Positions 5,308-33,821 of a DNA stretch of 39,619 bases are shown here, one piece after another. Each line of letters begins with the position of its first letter. Position 1 is the first letter of the stretch. The notes below the pieces were generated by a model that had not been told where the DNA came from, made no database searches, and was given only the letters and a program-made list of their open reading frames with translations. A program made the translations under genes and the position numbers. The DNA is from Candidatus Poribacteria bacterium (GTDB lineage: Bacteria; Poribacteria; WGA-4E; WGA-3G), in assembly GCA_021295735.1 (NCBI GenBank), contig JAGWBU010000102.1:1-39619 (forward strand), read 5' to 3'.

Positions 5308-7569
5308 ATGAAAACATTTACCGCCCTTTTTAAACAAAACTTGCTGGCTTTTCTTATCCTTATTAGCATTGCAGGGATTCCGCCTGTTACATTTGGTATT
5401 GAACCTATTGGCACAATTGGACAACCGATTCCAGAACAGCACGCGTTTCTTAACAATGAAACGATTGTACGCGTTGTACCAACACATATTCAGGTCATAA
5501 ATGTCAAAACAGGTGCGGTCACAGACGAATTCGGTGAGCGGACGCGTTATAGCAGTGTAGTATTTAGTCCGACTGCGGAACATTTAGCAATTTTGAATCG
5601 CACGATAAATTCATTGATGACCACCGTAAACATCTGGGATGTCAATAACAGGCAACTTATAGCCCGATGGGAGATAGCAGCTCGCATATCTGATGATGAA
5701 ACAGCGTTTAGTCCTACACAACCTATATTTGCGACTGCTATCGCTCGTGAAATACATCTATGGAACTGGCAAAATGGGGAAACTATTGGAAAGTTGATAC
5801 GTGAGGATTTGCCATCAGATCGGGCAATGGTTTTTAGTAAAGACGGTCGTCATCTCATTGTTGCTGCAAACAATTCTAAGCTTGAGTTATGGAACATTGA
5901 AACACGCAGCTTAGAGGCACAGTTTGTAGGGGAAAACGTTAGCAGTGCTGAAGAATTAGTCATCAGTCCTGATGACACGACCATTGCAATGTACACGTTA
6001 AATTCAGGTTCATTTTATGCATGGGATTTTAATACGCAACAGATGTTATGGCACAAAGGAGGTGGCACGGGGCATGTTGTTGCTATAGCATTTAGTTCTG
6101 ACAGTAGACATTTATATGTTGCGAACCGGACAAGTGCGTTACAAGGAAATGGCAAGGGTGGTTGGCGAGGATGGGACGATCAGGTGCGCGTCTGGGATGT
6201 CAAATCAGGACAACAGATTGATACATTCGGTAGCGAGTTTCGGTCGTTAAAGTCAATGACGCTATCGCCAAACGGGAAAACAGCGATCCTGCATTATCAA
6301 GATGCTGTTGTATTATGGGATGTTGAAAAAAGGAAGCAGTTGAAAGTGTGGACTGATTATATCAGTGGCTGGGATAATGCTTTAACACCTGACGGTAGGT
6401 CCTTAGTCTCTGTATCTCGAAACTCAATAAAGGCATGGGACATCTCTTCACAACAGATGCGTCTATTCACTTCTGTTGAAAATAGCCTATTCCGAGAATT
6501 TTCCATCTCTCCTGACGGGCAAAAACTGGCGGTTGGTCGGGACCCTTGGATTGAGGTGCGCGATCTACAGACAGGGAAAGTTGTTACGCAATTTAAGTAC
6601 CACCAAGGAATTACTGACATTACATTCAGTTCATCTGGTAAATGGGTGGCAGTAAGGAGGCATAGCAATATCCAACTCTTCAATGTTGAAAATCCAGAAA
6701 TGAATCAGATAGTTTCTACGGGCGATGCACCTGATATTGACATCAGCTCATATTTTACCTTCAGTGAAAATGACGAATATTTGGCAGCTTCAACACGCAC
6801 GTACAACAATCAAGGTTGGCAATATTGGATATTATTATGGAAACGCGAGGGAGATATTTTCCACTTTCAATATACATGGCAGGCACCTAAACTTGATAGT
6901 TTTTCATATTCAAGAGCAGCGTTTGTATCTGACGCAAATGGTTCAATAGTTTTGGCAGTTCCCAGACGAGAAGAAATCCAAATTTGGGAACTACTACCAG
7001 ATAATCCACAACTTGCGACAACTTTAGAAGTAGGTTTTCCAGTACACTTTAGCCCAGATGGTTGGTATCTATTAGGTGAACAAGATCGCATCCTTCAAAT
7101 CTGGAACTGGCAGACAAATACACAAATTGACCACCAGCCGATATCCGAATATTTTGACCTCAGTCAGAATGGCGCTGTTCTGGCATCTTACGATGATTCG
7201 GGACAAATTCAGATATGGGATGCAACAAAACTCTTACCTCCACAACCTCAACCTACCGCTGTTGAACCTAAAGGTAAGAAGTTCGTTACACTCGGACAAA
7301 TAAAGCGTAACCAGCTGCTACAAAACTTTCCTAACCCATTCAATCCAGAAACTTGGATTCCGTTCAGACTCGCAGATGAGCGCCATGTCACAATTCGCAT
7401 CTATACCCCAACAGGTAAGTTAGTCCGCTCACTATCCCCTGGAATCTTGTCTGCGGGGGATTGGGATGGACGCAATGATAAAGGCGAACCGGTGAGCAGT
7501 GGTGTTTATCTCTATACCATCAATACAGGTGACTTCTCCGCTACACGCAAAATGCTAATTCGGAAATGA
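5308..7569 (+). CDS. secreted WD40-like beta-propeller protein with FlgD-like / type-A sorting C-terminal domain (paralog 1)
   Basis: The product is 753 residues. Residues 1-30 form a signal peptide (FLILISIAGIPPVTFG). Residues about 31-645 contain WD40-like repeats, recognised by recurring [IV]WD/[IL]WN ends (NIWDVNNRQL, HLWNWQNGET, ELWNIETRS, RVWDVKSGQQ, KAWDISSQQ, QIWDATK). There are enough for about two seven-bladed propellers. After a hinge VEPKGKKFVTLGQIKR (from about residue 652), the last 80-90 residues (FPNPFNPETWIPF ... SSGVYLYTINTGDFSATRKMLIRK) form the FlgD-Ig-like domain used as a type-A sorting or anchoring domain in Bacteroidota-like secretion. It probably acts on the cell surface in binding; no enzyme motif is visible. 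The ATG has no strong Shine-Dalgarno, unlike most neighbours. Paralogs lie at 7889 and 13751. Confidence 0.85.
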   Translation: MKTFTALFKQNLLAFLILISIAGIPPVTFGIEPIGTIGQPIPEQHAFLNNETIVRVVPTHIQVINVKTGAVTDEFGERTRYSSVVFSPTAEHLAILNRTINSLMTTVNIWDVNNRQLIARWEIAARISDDETAFSPTQPIFATAIAREIHLWNWQNGETIGKLIREDLPSDRAMVFSKDGRHLIVAANNSKLELWNIETRSLEAQFVGENVSSAEELVISPDDTTIAMYTLNSGSFYAWDFNTQQMLWHKGGGTGHVVAIAFSSDSRHLYVANRTSALQGNGKGGWRGWDDQVRVWDVKSGQQIDTFGSEFRSLKSMTLSPNGKTAILHYQDAVVLWDVEKRKQLKVWTDYISGWDNALTPDGRSLVSVSRNSIKAWDISSQQMRLFTSVENSLFREFSISPDGQKLAVGRDPWIEVRDLQTGKVVTQFKYHQGITDITFSSSGKWVAVRRHSNIQLFNVENPEMNQIVSTGDAPDIDISSYFTFSENDEYLAASTRTYNNQGWQYWILLWKREGDIFHFQYTWQAPKLDSFSYSRAAFVSDANGSIVLAVPRREEIQIWELLPDNPQLATTLEVGFPVHFSPDGWYLLGEQDRILQIWNWQTNTQIDHQPISEYFDLSQNGAVLASYDDSGQIQIWDATKLLPPQPQPTAVEPKGKKFVTLGQIKRNQLLQNFPNPFNPETWIPFRLADERHVTIRIYTPTGKLVRSLSPGILSAGDWDGRNDKGEPVSSGVYLYTINTGDFSATRKMLIRK
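7312..7460 (+). repeat. copy 1 of a near-identical sorting-domain DNA block
   Basis: Bases 7312-7365 and 7382-7460 are identical to 9941-9994 and 10011-10089, with a short divergent stretch between them. The blocks encode the start of the FlgD-like C-terminal domain. The rest of the two genes is far more diverged, which points to gene conversion or strong constraint on this segment. Confidence 0.85.
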
Positions 7570-27835: not shown

Positions 27836-27908
27836 TAAAAAAGTGAGTTCCTCAAATTATACAATTTTTTACAGAATTTTCGCAAATTCTGCTTTTTTCA
27901 AAATTAAC

Positions 27909-27937
27909 TTGACATACATACATATATATATTAACGT
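27909..27937 (+). promoter_or_regulatory. candidate sigma-70-type promoter of the LamG gene
   Basis: TTGACA at 27909-27914 is a perfect -35. With a 17-base spacer the -10 would be TAACGT, a weak match that falls inside the left inverted repeat. The -35 and upstream AT-rich sequence resemble the promoter at 28998. Confidence 0.45.
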
Positions 27938-28006
27938 GAGTTCGGAAAAAGATGTAGGGTTCTAATGAAATTTGTGGAACCGGTTTTGCCCGGTCCTAAC
28001 GACCAA
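27931..28006 (+). repeat. left arm of a long inverted repeat framing the LamG gene
   Basis: This 76-base arm starts TTAACGTGAGTTCG and ends CCTAACGACCAA. Its reverse complement matches 28850-28924. Counting by eye, 60 of 76 columns agree with one gap, including both ends and AATTTGTGGAA in the middle. The arm ends 25 bases before the LamG start codon. Confidence 0.85.
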
Positions 28007-28030
28007 TACTGGACAAAAAAGGAGTCCAAA

Positions 28031-28807
28031 ATGTTTAACAAAATGTTGGTCATAGTTTTTGCTGTTATTGCAACTATTTTTATGTGTACAAATATGGCGA
28101 AAGCTCAAGTGATTACTAAAGGTTTGGTTAGCTACTGGACTTTTGATAAGGCTGATGTAGATGGCGATACTGTTAAAGACGTATTTGGGAAAAATGATGG
28201 AACCATGAAGGGCGACCCCAAAGTAGTTGAAGGTAAAGTCGGTCAGGCACTGGAGTTTGATGGTGATGATTATGTGGATTTCGGAGTTCCCGAAAGTTTG
28301 AATATAGATCCACCACTTACAGTTTCGATGTTTATTAATAATAAGGATCAGTCTGCCAGTTTCATATGGCAGGGCGGTGAGAAGAGTGGATCGACTAAGA
28401 ACTATATTTATATGAGGAATGATGGCGGGATGAACGTTGGTCAATGGCCACCTGGCGGCGGAGATTTGAATTCTCCTGGGGGGATTCTTGAAACACGCGG
28501 TGATTGGTATTATATCACTGCTGTTTTTGATGACCAATATCTTCTTTATGTCGATGGAGCTTTAAAGGGGGAACTCAAAGCAGAAGTTTACTCAGGTCCG
28601 ACCCCTACAGCTTGGCTACTTGGAACAAGGCTATTCCCTGCTAATGCTGCCTATTACTTCATAGGTCTCGTTGACGAACTTGGTGTTTATAATCGAGCGC
28701 TAAGTGAAGACGAAATCAACCAAAACATGGATGCAAAAGGGTGGGCTGACGTAAAGCCTGCTAATAAGTTAGCGCTTACTTGGGGAGATCTAAAAGCTTC
28801 AAGATAA
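28031..28807 (+). CDS. secreted LamG / concanavalin A-like lectin-domain protein with C-terminal tag
   Basis: The start is set at ATG 28031, six bases after AAGGAG, giving a clean signal peptide (MFNKMLVIVFAVIATIFM ... AKA). An ATG at 27965 would lie inside the inverted-repeat arm and spoil it. The product is 258 residues: GLVSYWTFDKADVDGDTVKD, GKVGQALEFDGDDYVDFGVP, LTVSMFINNKD, GDWYYITAVFDDQYLLYVDG, FIGLVDELGVYNRALSEDEI. This is a complete LamG domain. It ends VKPANKLALTWGDLKASR, a divergent version of the shared tag. It is the only gene between two inverted-repeat arms (27931-28006 and 28850-28924), suggesting it may have been acquired or moved as a unit. No transposase is present. The inferred role is extracellular ligand binding. 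Confidence 0.88.
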   Translation: MFNKMLVIVFAVIATIFMCTNMAKAQVITKGLVSYWTFDKADVDGDTVKDVFGKNDGTMKGDPKVVEGKVGQALEFDGDDYVDFGVPESLNIDPPLTVSMFINNKDQSASFIWQGGEKSGSTKNYIYMRNDGGMNVGQWPPGGGDLNSPGGILETRGDWYYITAVFDDQYLLYVDGALKGELKAEVYSGPTPTAWLLGTRLFPANAAYYFIGLVDELGVYNRALSEDEINQNMDAKGWADVKPANKLALTWGDLKASR

Positions 28808-28849
28808 CCTCAACTTAGCTAACACATAATCACGAAGTGAAAACTAAAC

Positions 28850-28924
28850 TTGGTCGTTAGGCCTGGGCATAAAACCTTCCACAAATTACACCTGATATCT
28901 AAATCTTTTTCGAACTCACGTTAA
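28850..28924 (-). repeat. right arm of a long inverted repeat framing the LamG gene
   Basis: This arm starts TTGGTCGTTAGG and ends CGAACTCACGTTAA. It is the inverted partner of 27931-28006. TTAA is at the outer end of both arms. The sequences inside the arms are unrelated, so the similarity stops sharply. Confidence 0.85.
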
Positions 28925-28997
28925 AAAATAAGCGAATTCCAAAAATTATATATTTTTGCAAAATTCTCGTAAAATAACGAACTTTTTCTATTTTAAC

Positions 28998-29026
28998 TTG
29001 ACAAACATATCTATAGGATGTATAAT
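28998..29026 (+). promoter_or_regulatory. consensus sigma-70-type promoter of the BlaI/M56 operon
   Basis: TTGACA (28998-29003) and TATAAT (29021-29026) are both perfect consensus hexamers with the ideal 17-base spacer. The site is about 130 bases before the BlaI-like start. The -10 overlaps a candidate operator half-site, the usual arrangement for autorepression. Confidence 0.85.
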
Positions 29027-29067
29027 ACTATTACTCCGTATTTAGAAATAGTATTTTAATATAGTAT
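29025..29067. promoter_or_regulatory. candidate BlaI-type operator
   Basis: ATACTATT (29025-29032) and AATAGTAT (29047-29054) form a perfect 8-bp dyad with a 14-base spacer. A third half-site ATAGTAT lies at 29061-29067. The dyad overlaps the -10 box and the start of transcription. BlaI/MecI-family repressors bind dyads in this position, so this is the best candidate site for the adjacent repressor. Confidence 0.6.
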
Positions 29068-29155: not shown

Positions 29156-29566
29156 ATGAAAAACAATAAATTACACCATTTAGAACTTGAGGTGATGAAA
29201 GTGGTGTGGAAACTGACGCGCGCCACAGTCAATGATGTTCTTGAAAACATTGATAGGAAACTCGCGTATACCACTGTCGCCACCACCATGAAAAGCCTTG
29301 AAAAGAAGGGTTTTTTGTCGCATCAAGTGGATGGTCGAACATTCGTTTACCAGCCTTTGGTCAAAGAAACAGAGATTACACATTCCATGCTTAACGATTT
29401 ATTGGAACGTCTCTTTGACAATTCGGCAGAAAAACTGGTGAACACGCTACTTGAGGTTCGACAAACCACTCCGTCTGAACTTGACCGTTTACAAAAATTG
29501 ATCAATGACTACCAGCCGGAAGAAATATCTGGAGTTCAACAACCCAAAGGAGTAACCGATGACTAA
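29156..29566 (+). CDS. BlaI/MecI/CopY-family transcriptional repressor
   Basis: The product is 136 residues, preceded by a GAGGA ribosome-binding site. It has the family winged-helix layout: LHHLELEVMKVVWKLTRATVNDVLENI, then the recognition helix region LAYTTVATTMKSLEKKGFLSHQVDGRTFVYQPLV, then a dimerisation helix (HSMLNDLLERLFDNSAEKLVNTLLE). Such repressors bind a dyad over their own promoter and are inactivated by proteolysis triggered by a membrane metalloprotease. That partner is encoded directly downstream, overlapping this gene by eight bases (29559-29566). A perfect dyad over the -10 box at 29025-29054 is the likely operator. The signal sensed need not be a beta-lactam, given the unusual sensor. 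Confidence 0.93.
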   Translation: MKNNKLHHLELEVMKVVWKLTRATVNDVLENIDRKLAYTTVATTMKSLEKKGFLSHQVDGRTFVYQPLVKETEITHSMLNDLLERLFDNSAEKLVNTLLEVRQTTPSELDRLQKLINDYQPEEISGVQQPKGVTDD

Positions 29567-32500
29567 GCAAATCCTGCTTTCTTTACTTAACTGTTCATGG
29601 CAATGGGGATTATTGGGCTGTTTAACATGGCTTGTGACCAGACGTTTTCGCCGCACCAACAGCACAACCCATCTGCTTTCGCTACTGCTTCTACTCAGTT
29701 TGCCAATCCTATTTGCTCTGAATCAGTTTGTGCCAACAATTTCAATCGGTAGCACGGCACCTGAATTGATGAAAGCACAACCCGTAGAAATTTCAGGTTT
29801 AATGACACAAACTGTAGACCTGCCGGAGATCACGACAACTGAAAGCGGCATGCAATCCCAAGCACACACGGTTGCTGGAAGCCAGTTTTCCTTTAATTGG
29901 ACTACAACCAATCTAATACTTTGTATTTGGGCTGTTGGGACACTTGCTATGTTGATTCGCGTTGCTTTTGGTTTGTATCGAATCCATCGACTCCGCCGTA
30001 CTGCAATAGTAGCGGATGATTCATATCAGGCAGTCTGTAAACGCTTGGCTCAAAAGCTGAACATAGATCGTCCAGTCACCGTTTGCTTCTCAGATCGGGT
30101 CGTATCACCTATCTCATTTGGTTGGTTATCACCTTACATTCTAATTCCGATAAAGATGAATTTAGATCAGTTTGAATTGGTAGCAGCGCACGAATTAGCG
30201 CACGTGCAAAGATTGGACTGGTTAACTAATCTCTTTTCTCATATAGTTGGTGCTATTTTCTTTTTCCATCCAATTTACTATTTTCTCAACCGAAAACTTG
30301 TCCATCTCCGGGAACGAATCTGTGATGATTGGGTCATCCAATTGACAGGCGCAAGGAAAAATTATGCCCAGTGTTTGTTAGATATGGTTCACCATAAAGA
30401 ACAGGCTATTCCTCTAACTTTGGGGTTAAATGAGCCGTCAGAATTGGAATCTCGAATTAACTCCATTTTGAAAAATAATAGACAACTTGACTTAAAACCA
30501 AGACGACGTTTGCGTGTAGTAGCAGTAACCTTACTCCTAACCTGTCTCCCTTTGCTTGCGATGGCACAGCTGGTTCCGCTGAGAACTGTTCAACTTTCAC
30601 TATTCGCTCAGACGCCACAGGAATCGGAAAAAGCGGTTGAAAAAGTTGAAAAGAAACGTGGTGAGCAGAAAAAACTTGCTGAAATGAAGGATAAGAAAGA
30701 ATACAAGGAAGACAAATCCATAAAGGTTTTGGACCCTTCAGCGTTTACTAAATCACAGGAAAACCGTTTGTTCTCCGGACCGCAACCCGGAGAAAAACTC
30801 CCGGCATTGATGGTGACCGGCACTGACGGCGAACTTGACGGTCAGATATTTGATATCACCGCTGAGGCGGATGGGAAACCGCTTGTATTGTTCTTGCAAA
30901 ATACCAATGGCGTCGGCGTAAAAGGGCTTGTTGGCGTGTCCCAGTTGCTCCTTAAAATTAATGCTTTCCAAAAAAGGAATAGCACGGCAACGGGTACCGA
31001 AGTGTCTAATCAAGGACTCCAGATAGGTGTTGTGTTCCTTACAGATGATCTTGATACTCTACCTATGTTAAAAAAAGGGATTCCAAATAAGGTATTAACA
31101 GGGATATCTCCTGATGGACGTGAAGGACCAGGGAGTTATGGATTGAACCGCAATGTGGCACAGACAATTATTATTGCCAAAGATGGGAAAGTACTACACA
31201 ATTTTGCTTTCACACAACCGATGCTCTATACTGATCCACATCTCCTCGGTGCCATCGCACAAGCGATTGAAGTAGAACCCGCAGCGTTGGAGAAGTGGCT
31301 GAATGATAAAGAATTAAATCGCTACATGACAATGGTTGCTGAATCTAACGCAAGGTTACTCGCCCTAAATTTTGAGAATCTACGCGCAGAACTCAAGCAG
31401 GGGAGAATATCAAAGAAAAAGGCAGCGGAAAAACTCAAAAAACTGGGTATCACTTGGGAAGAAGGCGAACAACTTCTCAAGAAGACCAACGATGATGCTC
31501 AGATGATGCACAGAGAACGCCAATATGAAAATCGCCGTCAAGTAGAAGTTGCTGACCCAGCAGATTTCGGTACGTCCGATGAAAAACGGATATTTTCTGG
31601 ACCGCAACCGGGCGAAAAACTTCCACCATTGAAGGCAACCGGGATAAGCGGTGCAGCAAAAGGTAAAACATTCGATTTTATTGCCAAAGCTGGTGGACAA
31701 CCGCTCGTGCTTCTGTTGCAAGACGAAAGTGGTGTAGGTTTGCGTGGGTTGTACGATATTTCCCGTATAGTTGATAAAATCTCCAATGAATCTAAGCAAG
31801 AACTACAGATAAGTGTTGTGTTTCTCAGCGATGATCCCGCAGCGTTGAAACAAATTACACAGCATGTGCCAGAGAACGTGTTAGTTGGTATTTCTCCGGA
31901 TGGTCGGGAGGGACCGGGGAGTTATGGGTTAAATCGCAATGTTTCACAGACAGTTATTATTGCTAAAGAAAGTAAGGTTTTTTATAACTTTGCTTGCACA
32001 CAACCTTTGCTCTTTGCCGATCCACATGTCCTTGGTGCCATAGCAGATGTAATTCAGGAAAAACCGGAAACAGTAGCGAAATGGCTGAACGAAGCGCCTG
32101 CTGAAGGTGAACGGATGCAGCGCGGCGGCGGACAGGAGAATGTAACAATACCTGATGCCAACTTAGCCGCCGTTGTGCGGGATGCACTCGGTTTGGATCC
32201 AAGTGCTCCAATTCCAAAAAAGAAGTTGGAAACATTAGAGACACTTCGTGCTTTGAAAAAAAACATAGGAGACTTGACAGGGTTGGAAAAAGCAACGGGG
32301 TTAAAGACTTTAATAATTCGTGGGGATTATAGTCAGAATCAAATCAAGGATATAACGCCACTCGCTGGATTGACGCAGCTAACGGAGTTATCTCTTTCAG
32401 AAAATCGGATTACAGATATCAAACCACTTGCTGGATTAGCGCAGTTGAAAAAGTTAAGGTTAAACAATAATGGACTTATTCGCGACATCACGCCTCTCGG

Positions 32501-33821
32501 CGGACTAAGACAACTTACACAGTTATCACTCTACAACAACCTAATCCGTGACATCACACCGCTTACTGGGTTGACACAACTTAAAAGTTTACGGATTTTT
32601 ATGAATGAAATTAGTAACATTACACCGCTCGCAAACTTGAAACAGTTGACAGAGTTAGACCTTAGTATAAATCAAATCCACGACATCACACCGCTTACTA
32701 ACTTGAAACAGCTGACAAATTTAAAACTCCAAGCTAACCAAATTCGCGACATCACGCCTCTCAGCGGACTGAGACAACTTACATGGTTAGCGCTTTCCAA
32801 CAACCCGATTAAGATTCAGGATATGAGGCCCCTCCGCATGTTGCTAAAGCAGCAGCCGGATTTGGAAATAGACATTGCCCTACCACCTGCTGAAGAACGT
32901 AACCGATATCGTAGGGATCGTATTGAAGTAAAAAATCCTGCTGAGTTCAAGAAGACTCAGAAAAAAGATCTTTTCTCTGGACCGCAACCCGGCGAAAAAC
33001 TCCCACCTCTGATGGCTACAGGTATCAACGGTGAAACTAAAGACAAAACTTACGATGTCATCGCCAAGGCAGAGGGAAAAACACTTGTTCTCTTCCTACA
33101 GGACGAAAGCGGTCTCGGTTTGCGTGGGTTGGTTGGTTTTTCACGTTTACTCGCTCAAATCGCCGAGAAATCTAAACAGAAAATGCATATAAATGCTGTG
33201 TTTTTAGGGGACACACCAGATACCTTGAAGGATCAAGCCAGTAAGTTAGTCCCGCATATTCCAAGTGGTGTCTTACTCGGTATTTCTTTGGACGGTCGTG
33301 AAGGACCTGGCAGCTACGGACTGAATAGAAGTGTCGCGCAGACAGTTATTATCGCCAAAGATGGAAAAGTGCTTTATAACTTTGCTTTCACGCAACCGAT
33401 GCTCCGTCCCGACCCTCATTTACTTGGTGCTGTCGGAGAGGCAATTGGGGTGAAGCCTGCCACGCTGGAAAAATGGTTGAACCTAAAAAATCCTGTTATC
33501 GAAATTAAAAATCCTGCTGAAGGTGAAGAAGCTGGTAAAATGCTCTTAAACGGAACGTTTGTATTAAACGGATCCGTTGTACACTTAGATGGAACCGTTG
33601 TACAGTTTGATGGATTGCTTACGTTCCTTCGTAACTTACCTGAAGAACAAAAATCTATGCTTATTATCCAATCAGAACGAGATGTGCCTCACGAACAGAT
33701 CGTCAAGGTAATGGATATCGCAAAAGAGGCAGGTATTGATAAAATTGGGCTCGGAATTAGTGAGGCTGAAAATAAGCCTATGGAAAGCGGTAGTGAACAG
33801 ATGCGACGTGGTGAAGATTAA
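29559..33821 (+). CDS. giant M56 (BlaR-like) membrane metalloprotease fused to redoxin-like modules, LRRs and an ExbD-like tail
   Basis: The product is 1420 residues, more than twice the usual BlaR1 length; AAGGAG precedes its ATG. Residues 1-340 form the M56 membrane protease, with hydrophobic segments near 12-28, 38-56, 117-138, 222-243 and 317-337. The zinc motif is HELAH (211-215) in AAHELAHVQRLDW, with a downstream RERICDDWV (251-259). A Lys/Glu-rich stretch (355-388) leads to the extracytoplasmic part. Redoxin-like modules at about 389-585, 661-845 and 1121-1307 share SGPQPGEKLP and GISxDGREGPGSYGLNR. A helical linker lies at 587-655. Internalin-like leucine-rich repeats (LTELSLSENRITDIKPLAGL and similar) lie at about 859-1110. 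An ExbD/TolR-like end (MLIIQSERDVPHEQIVKVMD, AGIDKIGLGI) lies at about 1327-1402. It probably senses an envelope signal and cleaves or inactivates the BlaI-like repressor. No penicillin-binding domain is present. The modules lack a CxxC pair, so redox catalysis is unlikely. Confidence 0.9.
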   Translation: MTKQILLSLLNCSWQWGLLGCLTWLVTRRFRRTNSTTHLLSLLLLLSLPILFALNQFVPTISIGSTAPELMKAQPVEISGLMTQTVDLPEITTTESGMQSQAHTVAGSQFSFNWTTTNLILCIWAVGTLAMLIRVAFGLYRIHRLRRTAIVADDSYQAVCKRLAQKLNIDRPVTVCFSDRVVSPISFGWLSPYILIPIKMNLDQFELVAAHELAHVQRLDWLTNLFSHIVGAIFFFHPIYYFLNRKLVHLRERICDDWVIQLTGARKNYAQCLLDMVHHKEQAIPLTLGLNEPSELESRINSILKNNRQLDLKPRRRLRVVAVTLLLTCLPLLAMAQLVPLRTVQLSLFAQTPQESEKAVEKVEKKRGEQKKLAEMKDKKEYKEDKSIKVLDPSAFTKSQENRLFSGPQPGEKLPALMVTGTDGELDGQIFDITAEADGKPLVLFLQNTNGVGVKGLVGVSQLLLKINAFQKRNSTATGTEVSNQGLQIGVVFLTDDLDTLPMLKKGIPNKVLTGISPDGREGPGSYGLNRNVAQTIIIAKDGKVLHNFAFTQPMLYTDPHLLGAIAQAIEVEPAALEKWLNDKELNRYMTMVAESNARLLALNFENLRAELKQGRISKKKAAEKLKKLGITWEEGEQLLKKTNDDAQMMHRERQYENRRQVEVADPADFGTSDEKRIFSGPQPGEKLPPLKATGISGAAKGKTFDFIAKAGGQPLVLLLQDESGVGLRGLYDISRIVDKISNESKQELQISVVFLSDDPAALKQITQHVPENVLVGISPDGREGPGSYGLNRNVSQTVIIAKESKVFYNFACTQPLLFADPHVLGAIADVIQEKPETVAKWLNEAPAEGERMQRGGGQENVTIPDANLAAVVRDALGLDPSAPIPKKKLETLETLRALKKNIGDLTGLEKATGLKTLIIRGDYSQNQIKDITPLAGLTQLTELSLSENRITDIKPLAGLAQLKKLRLNNNGLIRDITPLGGLRQLTQLSLYNNLIRDITPLTGLTQLKSLRIFMNEISNITPLANLKQLTELDLSINQIHDITPLTNLKQLTNLKLQANQIRDITPLSGLRQLTWLALSNNPIKIQDMRPLRMLLKQQPDLEIDIALPPAEERNRYRRDRIEVKNPAEFKKTQKKDLFSGPQPGEKLPPLMATGINGETKDKTYDVIAKAEGKTLVLFLQDESGLGLRGLVGFSRLLAQIAEKSKQKMHINAVFLGDTPDTLKDQASKLVPHIPSGVLLGISLDGREGPGSYGLNRSVAQTVIIAKDGKVLYNFAFTQPMLRPDPHLLGAVGEAIGVKPATLEKWLNLKNPVIEIKNPAEGEEAGKMLLNGTFVLNGSVVHLDGTVVQFDGLLTFLRNLPEEQKSMLIIQSERDVPHEQIVKVMDIAKEAGIDKIGLGISEAENKPMESGSEQMRRGED

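Follow-up and report, generated by a model that had tools for sequence, protein, structure and literature searches.

How a gene for a LamG-domain protein has come to stand alone between two long inverted repeats is the question raised by a contig of a sponge-associated bacterium of Candidatus Poribacteria (JAGWBU010000102.1 of assembly GCA_021295735.1; its whole stretch of 39,619 nucleotides is called the window below). A first-pass annotation, made from the sequence alone, had read the locus either as a passenger-carrying MITE-like or cassette-like element, or as a small mobile repeat present twice in opposite orientation. The features relevant to the question are collected in Table 1.

Table 1. 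Features of the LamG locus and its surroundings, in window coordinates
Feature	Position	Strand	Remarks
Conserved upstream neighbour, 650 aa	25883..27835	+	Matches no Pfam or NCBIfam family
Direct copy 1 of the blaI upstream/promoter region	27838..27930	+	Stops at the left arm
Left arm of inverted repeat	27931..28006	+	5' of the LamG start codon; repeat search, BLAST
Outer left arm, IS982-family terminus (AACGTGAGTTCGGAAAAAGATGTAGGGTTCTAATGAAA)	27933..27970	+	Resembles the IS end 3' of the transposase; consensus matches, alignment score
Inner left arm, specific to LamG loci	27971..28006	+	Strong matches elsewhere only at the LamG loci of G003, G005 and G008
LamG gene, 258 aa	28031..28807	+	Apparent signal peptide; Laminin_G_3 (Pfam PF13385, E 1e-15); C-terminal LALTWGDLKASR
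Right arm of inverted repeat	28850..28924	-	3' of LamG; repeat search, BLAST
Outer right arm, IS982-family terminus	28887..28924	-	Score 21 against IS982 end, shuffled maximum 13
Unit ends, outer edge of both arms			AACGTGAG
Direct copy 2, blaI's own upstream/promoter region	28925..29015	+	Begins at the right-arm end
BlaI-operator-like dyad at the blaI promoter, AATACTATT-N13-AATAGTATT	29021..29058	+	Inverted repeat I7
BlaI/MecI-type repressor (blaI), downstream neighbour	29156..29566	+	PF03965, E 6.8e-32
BlaR1-like M56 peptidase fused to LRR and ExbD-like C-terminus	29559..33821	+	Profile search
C-termini with KLTTTWGQLKK / LALTWGDLKASR-like motif	4303, 5241, 17171, 18191, 19226, 23914, 28807		

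Composition of the inverted arms

When the left arm was compared by BLAST with the whole genome (5.07 Mb), the only matches were the arm itself and the right arm, on the minus strand (81% match, E 8.5e-12). A mechanical repeat search likewise recovered the arms, as adjacent ungapped blocks (I1, 62 nt, 76%; I3, 25 nt, 88%), and the inverted repeat described in the first-pass annotation is thus confirmed. The unit that it delimits (27931-28924, 994 bp) is present once in the genome. As had been stated, the arms enclose the LamG coding sequence alone, without a transposase; a ribosome-binding site, GGAG, precedes the ATG at 28031. The sharp arm ends that had been noted hold only in part: the inner edge, GACCAA, is sharp in this genome but not in G003 and G005, where similarity extends some 10-15 nt further inward. 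Relative to these two genomes, the LamG 5' leader lacks about 60 nt at the inner arm end.

Two simple views of the arms were discarded. They are not one dispersed 76-nt repeat, as the full arm is found only at the LamG locus in this genome. Nor are they two solo MITEs in opposite orientation, because neither arm has a terminus at its inner end; the suggestion of two opposite copies of a small mobile repeat fails on the same point, the arm terminus lying at the outer end only.

Over its outer ~37 nt, each arm is a terminus of the IS982 family. Alignment of the outer left arm with an IS982 end gave a score of 34 (shuffled maximum, 15), and both arms resemble the same end of the insertion sequence, that lying 3' of the transposase gene. 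Matches to a consensus arm away from LamG cover its first 28-37 nt only: 37 nt in G002 (95%) and twice in G010 (92%), 28 nt in G005 (100%) and in G004 and G030 (96%). In G004, a congener, an arm-type end adjoins the stop codon of a 299-aa transposase that belongs to the IS982 family (NF033520, 243.9 bits, cut-off 130), and intact elements of ~1.0 kb with related ends are found in G024 (1008 bp, with a 6-bp target duplication) and G035 (1023 bp). A transposase with similar ends, the search for which had been proposed, is therefore available in relatives. The assembly under study holds no intact IS982 element with arm-type ends; a full-length IS982-like copy with one stop (C37:619-1308) and several fragments, without such ends, were considered and rejected as the parent. 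At one locus of this set, C226, an unpaired related terminus lies nearby.

The terminus family is abundant, as a genome-wide search for the arm sequence made clear. With up to one mismatch, ACGTGAGTTYGAWAA occurs at 153 sites of the genome, compared with 5 for the reversed pattern; with up to three mismatches, AACGTGAGTTCGRAAAAAGAT occurs at 16 sites, compared with 0. In 20 stretches sampled from this genome, most paired sites delimit gene-free elements of 120-600 bp, that is, MITEs, with terminal repeats of 18-27 nt and target duplications of 4-7 bp. Paired sites in relatives are likewise mostly MITEs with short target duplications. Because the family has many copies, forms MITEs with target duplications and has an IS982 transposase with matching ends, the proposal that the outer arm is a mobile-element end is supported. 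The LamG unit itself is not a MITE in the sense of a non-coding element below ~0.6 kb with many near-identical copies.

Terminus pairs spaced further apart were inspected in G010, G024 and G035, and no second passenger-carrying element with such ends was seen there: most of these pairs are intact or decayed IS982 copies. Two candidates were dismissed. A 3.1-kb element of G035, with a 5-bp target duplication, contains two open reading frames that by appearance look like nested insertion sequences, and a 2.5-kb pair in G010 has no target duplication and encloses unrelated genes.

The inner ~38 nt are of another kind. The left and right stretches match each other as an inverted pair (score 21; shuffles reached at most 12), and alignment against shuffles gave no significant match between them and IS982. 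Besides the strong matches listed in Table 1, part of the inner arm lies beside LamG in G001 and G021. The inner halves thus travel with LamG, and each arm consists of an IS982 end joined to a LamG-specific inverted stretch.

Distribution and descent of the LamG gene

LamG orthologues are present in 7 of 59 genomes of the family, in two genera, and four of the seven carriers (G001, G002, G008 and G021) hold the gene without the outer ends, so that full arms are absent from them. Compared with G021, this genome has a synonymous divergence (dS, NG86) of 0.40 in LamG, against 1.81 in the upstream gene and 1.30 in blaI. Compared with G008, LamG stands at 0.46, while the upstream gene is saturated and the M56 gene reaches 1.81. 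In the closer pair formed with G003 the ratio is milder (0.39 for LamG against 0.66), so the dS of LamG is in itself somewhat low. In the distant carriers, however, the values lie so far below those of the neighbouring genes that both distant pairs require horizontal transfer of LamG. The segment shared horizontally in G008 and G021 spans about -100 to +790, little more than the gene, and in G021 the genes flanking LamG remain diverged. Not all of the history is of this kind: the LamG genes of G001 and G002 (dS 0.86, and 0.77 for the next gene) look vertical to each other. The view of LamG as a patchy and horizontally mobile gene is therefore borne out by both distribution and dS.

In the LamG tree, G005 groups with G001 (100/98) and G003 with G008 (86/89), and the carriers of full arms are not one clade. 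Since they are not, the outer arms are most simply regarded as old and as lost in some LamG copies.

Many secreted proteins of the LamG type are encoded in poribacterial genomes, and their spread calls for an explanation. The gene described here is one of them: it has passed between species and between genera, and is framed by ends of an insertion-sequence family with well over 100 termini in the genome.

The LamG site and the duplicated blaI promoter region

Sites without LamG exist in relatives, where the first-pass annotation had proposed to look for empty ones: the upstream gene and blaI are adjacent without LamG in G008, G025, G027 and G035. Elsewhere the gap between the two genes is filled differently: by a MITE in G031, by a different LamG-type gene in G029, and in G012 by a longer stretch that includes a hicB-like coding sequence. 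As its contents differ among genomes, the gap is a variable slot. LamG adjoins the same upstream gene in this genome and in G002, G003, G005 and G021, and adjoins blaI in three; it occupies other genomic positions in G008, at an unrelated site, and in G001. No target duplication of 4-7 bp was detected at 27931/28924, and none was seen in G003.

Several minor features of the slot deserve mention. The right IS982 end is interrupted at the same place by a second element in G003 (locus L059) and G005 (L061); in G003 this element, TATACCATTTCTA...TAGAAATGGTAT, is MITE-like. Such a nested insertion would block the use of that IS982 end. The hicB-like sequence, named by eye, lies on the reverse strand at L059 (106 aa) and in G012 (L068), and is probably part of a hicBA module. 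A different LamG-type gene is found downstream of the same upstream gene at L074 (G029) and L075 (G023). On the other side of the slot, the M56 peptidase is of the BlaR1 type, with long extracytoplasmic LRR-bearing regions, and lies beside the BlaI repressor, and no gene for a beta-lactamase was noted in the vicinity.

The least expected part of the locus, absent from the first-pass annotation, is a duplication of the blaI promoter region. The sequences that flank the unit (~27838-27930 and 28925-29015) are direct copies of about 92 bp (score 57; best of 1000 shuffles, 33), and copy 1 provides a -35-like TTGACA (27909-27914) upstream of LamG. The core pattern of the operator-like dyad occurs once in the genome, so that autoregulation may be the main control of blaI. 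Beside the left arm of G003 and G005, the promoter-like sequence keeps ATACTATTAT, which is part of the blaI operator-like motif, and the LamG promoter of G008 is similar to the blaI promoter (score 38; shuffles reached at most 31). Taken together, the ~92-bp copies, the retained motif and the G008 promoter suggest that the LamG unit gained a promoter of the blaI type, either by insertion and duplication or by homologous integration. A more specific version, which we regard as quite improbable, is that a LamG cassette with IS982 ends picked up a copy of the blaI promoter, and that this shared sequence guides its integration next to blaI by homology. If this were true, promoter capture could place a surface-lectin-like gene under BlaI/BlaR1-type control.

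Origin of the LamG unit

The explanation that we favour, with slightly better than even confidence, is that the unit is an old, degenerate passenger cassette derived from IS982, in other words a mobile insertion cassette (MIC). The LamG gene has an IS982 terminus on either side, in inverted orientation. Its movement would depend on an IS982 transposase that acts in trans and recognises the outer ~18-37 nt of each arm. Integration at this site probably involved or produced the ~92-bp duplication, as the blaI promoter region recurs in the promoter-like sequence beside the left arm. That the arms, long and both of the transposase-3'-end type, carried LamG's move is inferred. The unit now looks fixed, since its arms are ~80% alike, no short target duplication is present and the assembly shows no intact IS982 element with such ends.

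MICs are non-autonomous derivatives of insertion sequences that, unlike MITEs, carry coding sequence (PMC5444012); MIC231 of Bacillus cereus is cited as one in PMC6542083. Like the LamG unit, MIC231 and the qnrS2 MICE of Aeromonas plasmids hold a passenger gene but no transposase between IS ends in inverse orientation. The LamG unit differs in its IS982-type ends, in its ~76-nt degenerate arms (22-bp repeats in the qnrS2 MICE), of which merely ~37 nt are IS-like, in the missing target duplication, in its chromosomal LamG passenger and in its ~92-bp direct flanks. MITEs derived from IS982 are known from Cardinium cOegib, where one of ~240 bp is related to ISCca4 (PMC9769881), and abound in the genome studied here. 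They too have IS982 termini without a transposase, but they are gene-free, and the terminal repeats of those in this genome measure only ~18-27 nt. Composite transposons also place a gene between inverted IS-related sequences; the LamG arms, however, are termini only, not whole IS copies, and no transposase is present. MICs and IS982-derived MITEs being known kinds of element (PMC5444012, PMC6542083, PMC9769881), the unit looks like a known kind of cassette and not a new element type. By its ends, which match the terminal repeats of an insertion sequence with an IS982 transposase, it is an IS982-derived element. It functions in the manner of a MIC and probably stems from one, but its membership is established in part only, because the target duplication, which may have decayed, is missing and mobilisation by the cognate transposase is putative.

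The first-pass annotation was thus right in large part. Of the cassette-like element that it suggested, the mobile outer end and the mobility of LamG have stood, while the missing target duplication and the four carriers without outer ends speak against it. Those four carriers imply that LamG can occupy its place without the ends. Other observations count against a cassette as well: the inner ~38 nt show no significant match to IS982, the MITEs sampled in this genome have much shorter terminal repeats, no second passenger-carrying element was recognised among the pairs inspected in G010, G024 and G035, and the G008 LamG promoter is blaI-like, even though such sequence lies outside the left arm here.

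Rather unlikely, though the best placed of the alternatives, is spread of LamG on transferred DNA that recombined homologously, aided by flanks held in common, namely the upstream gene and the blaI promoter copies. The IS982 ends would then be bystanders that landed on the gene or were duplicated around it. The recurrent position of LamG beside the same upstream gene and blaI, the ~92-bp direct copies that bracket the unit, the lack of a short target duplication, the carriers without outer ends and the partly vertical history in G001 and G002 all agree with this alternative. It is harder to reconcile with a shared segment that barely exceeds the gene in G008 and G021, with the diverged flanks of G021 and with the unrelated site in G008; moreover, two independent IS ends inversely and exactly framing one gene would be a coincidence.

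An inverted duplication of LamG's own flank, in which the inner arm is old flank copied inversely and the IS982 ends were added later, seems very improbable. Inner right-arm sequence does lie beside LamG in G001, and more weakly in G002, without an IS end, and both arms resemble the same IS end. Nevertheless, inner and outer parts are inverted jointly, as a single block, in this genome, G003 and G005, and the left and right inner parts of G002 are not significantly alike.

Least probable by far is a functional RNA or DNA structure in which the arms, both in the transcript and the left one beginning beside promoter-like sequence and thus in the 5' leader, would pair across the untranslated regions and protect or regulate the LamG mRNA: an Rfam scan of the whole window gave no family at gathering thresholds, most changes among this genome, G003 and G005 fall in a single arm, 67 of the 231 aligned cells are unpaired, the pair is kept through two-sided change in only four columns, three of them innermost, and arms conserved at the locus in all relatives, the case named at the outset against a mobile element, were looked for and not found.

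If the IS982 ends did move the gene, passenger cassettes of this family would offer sponge symbionts one way of shuffling their surface-protein genes. The IS982 family also provides a concrete, testable parent transposase.

The LamG product is also one of seven predicted secreted proteins of the window, LamG and beta-propeller-like ones among them, that share a C-terminal motif (Table 1), which looks like a sorting or anchoring signal. Three WD40-like proteins (C-termini at 7569, 10117 and 16033) have LGQIKRNQLLQNFPNPFNPETWIPF in common, and after it comes a C-terminal module similar to a type IX secretion sorting domain.
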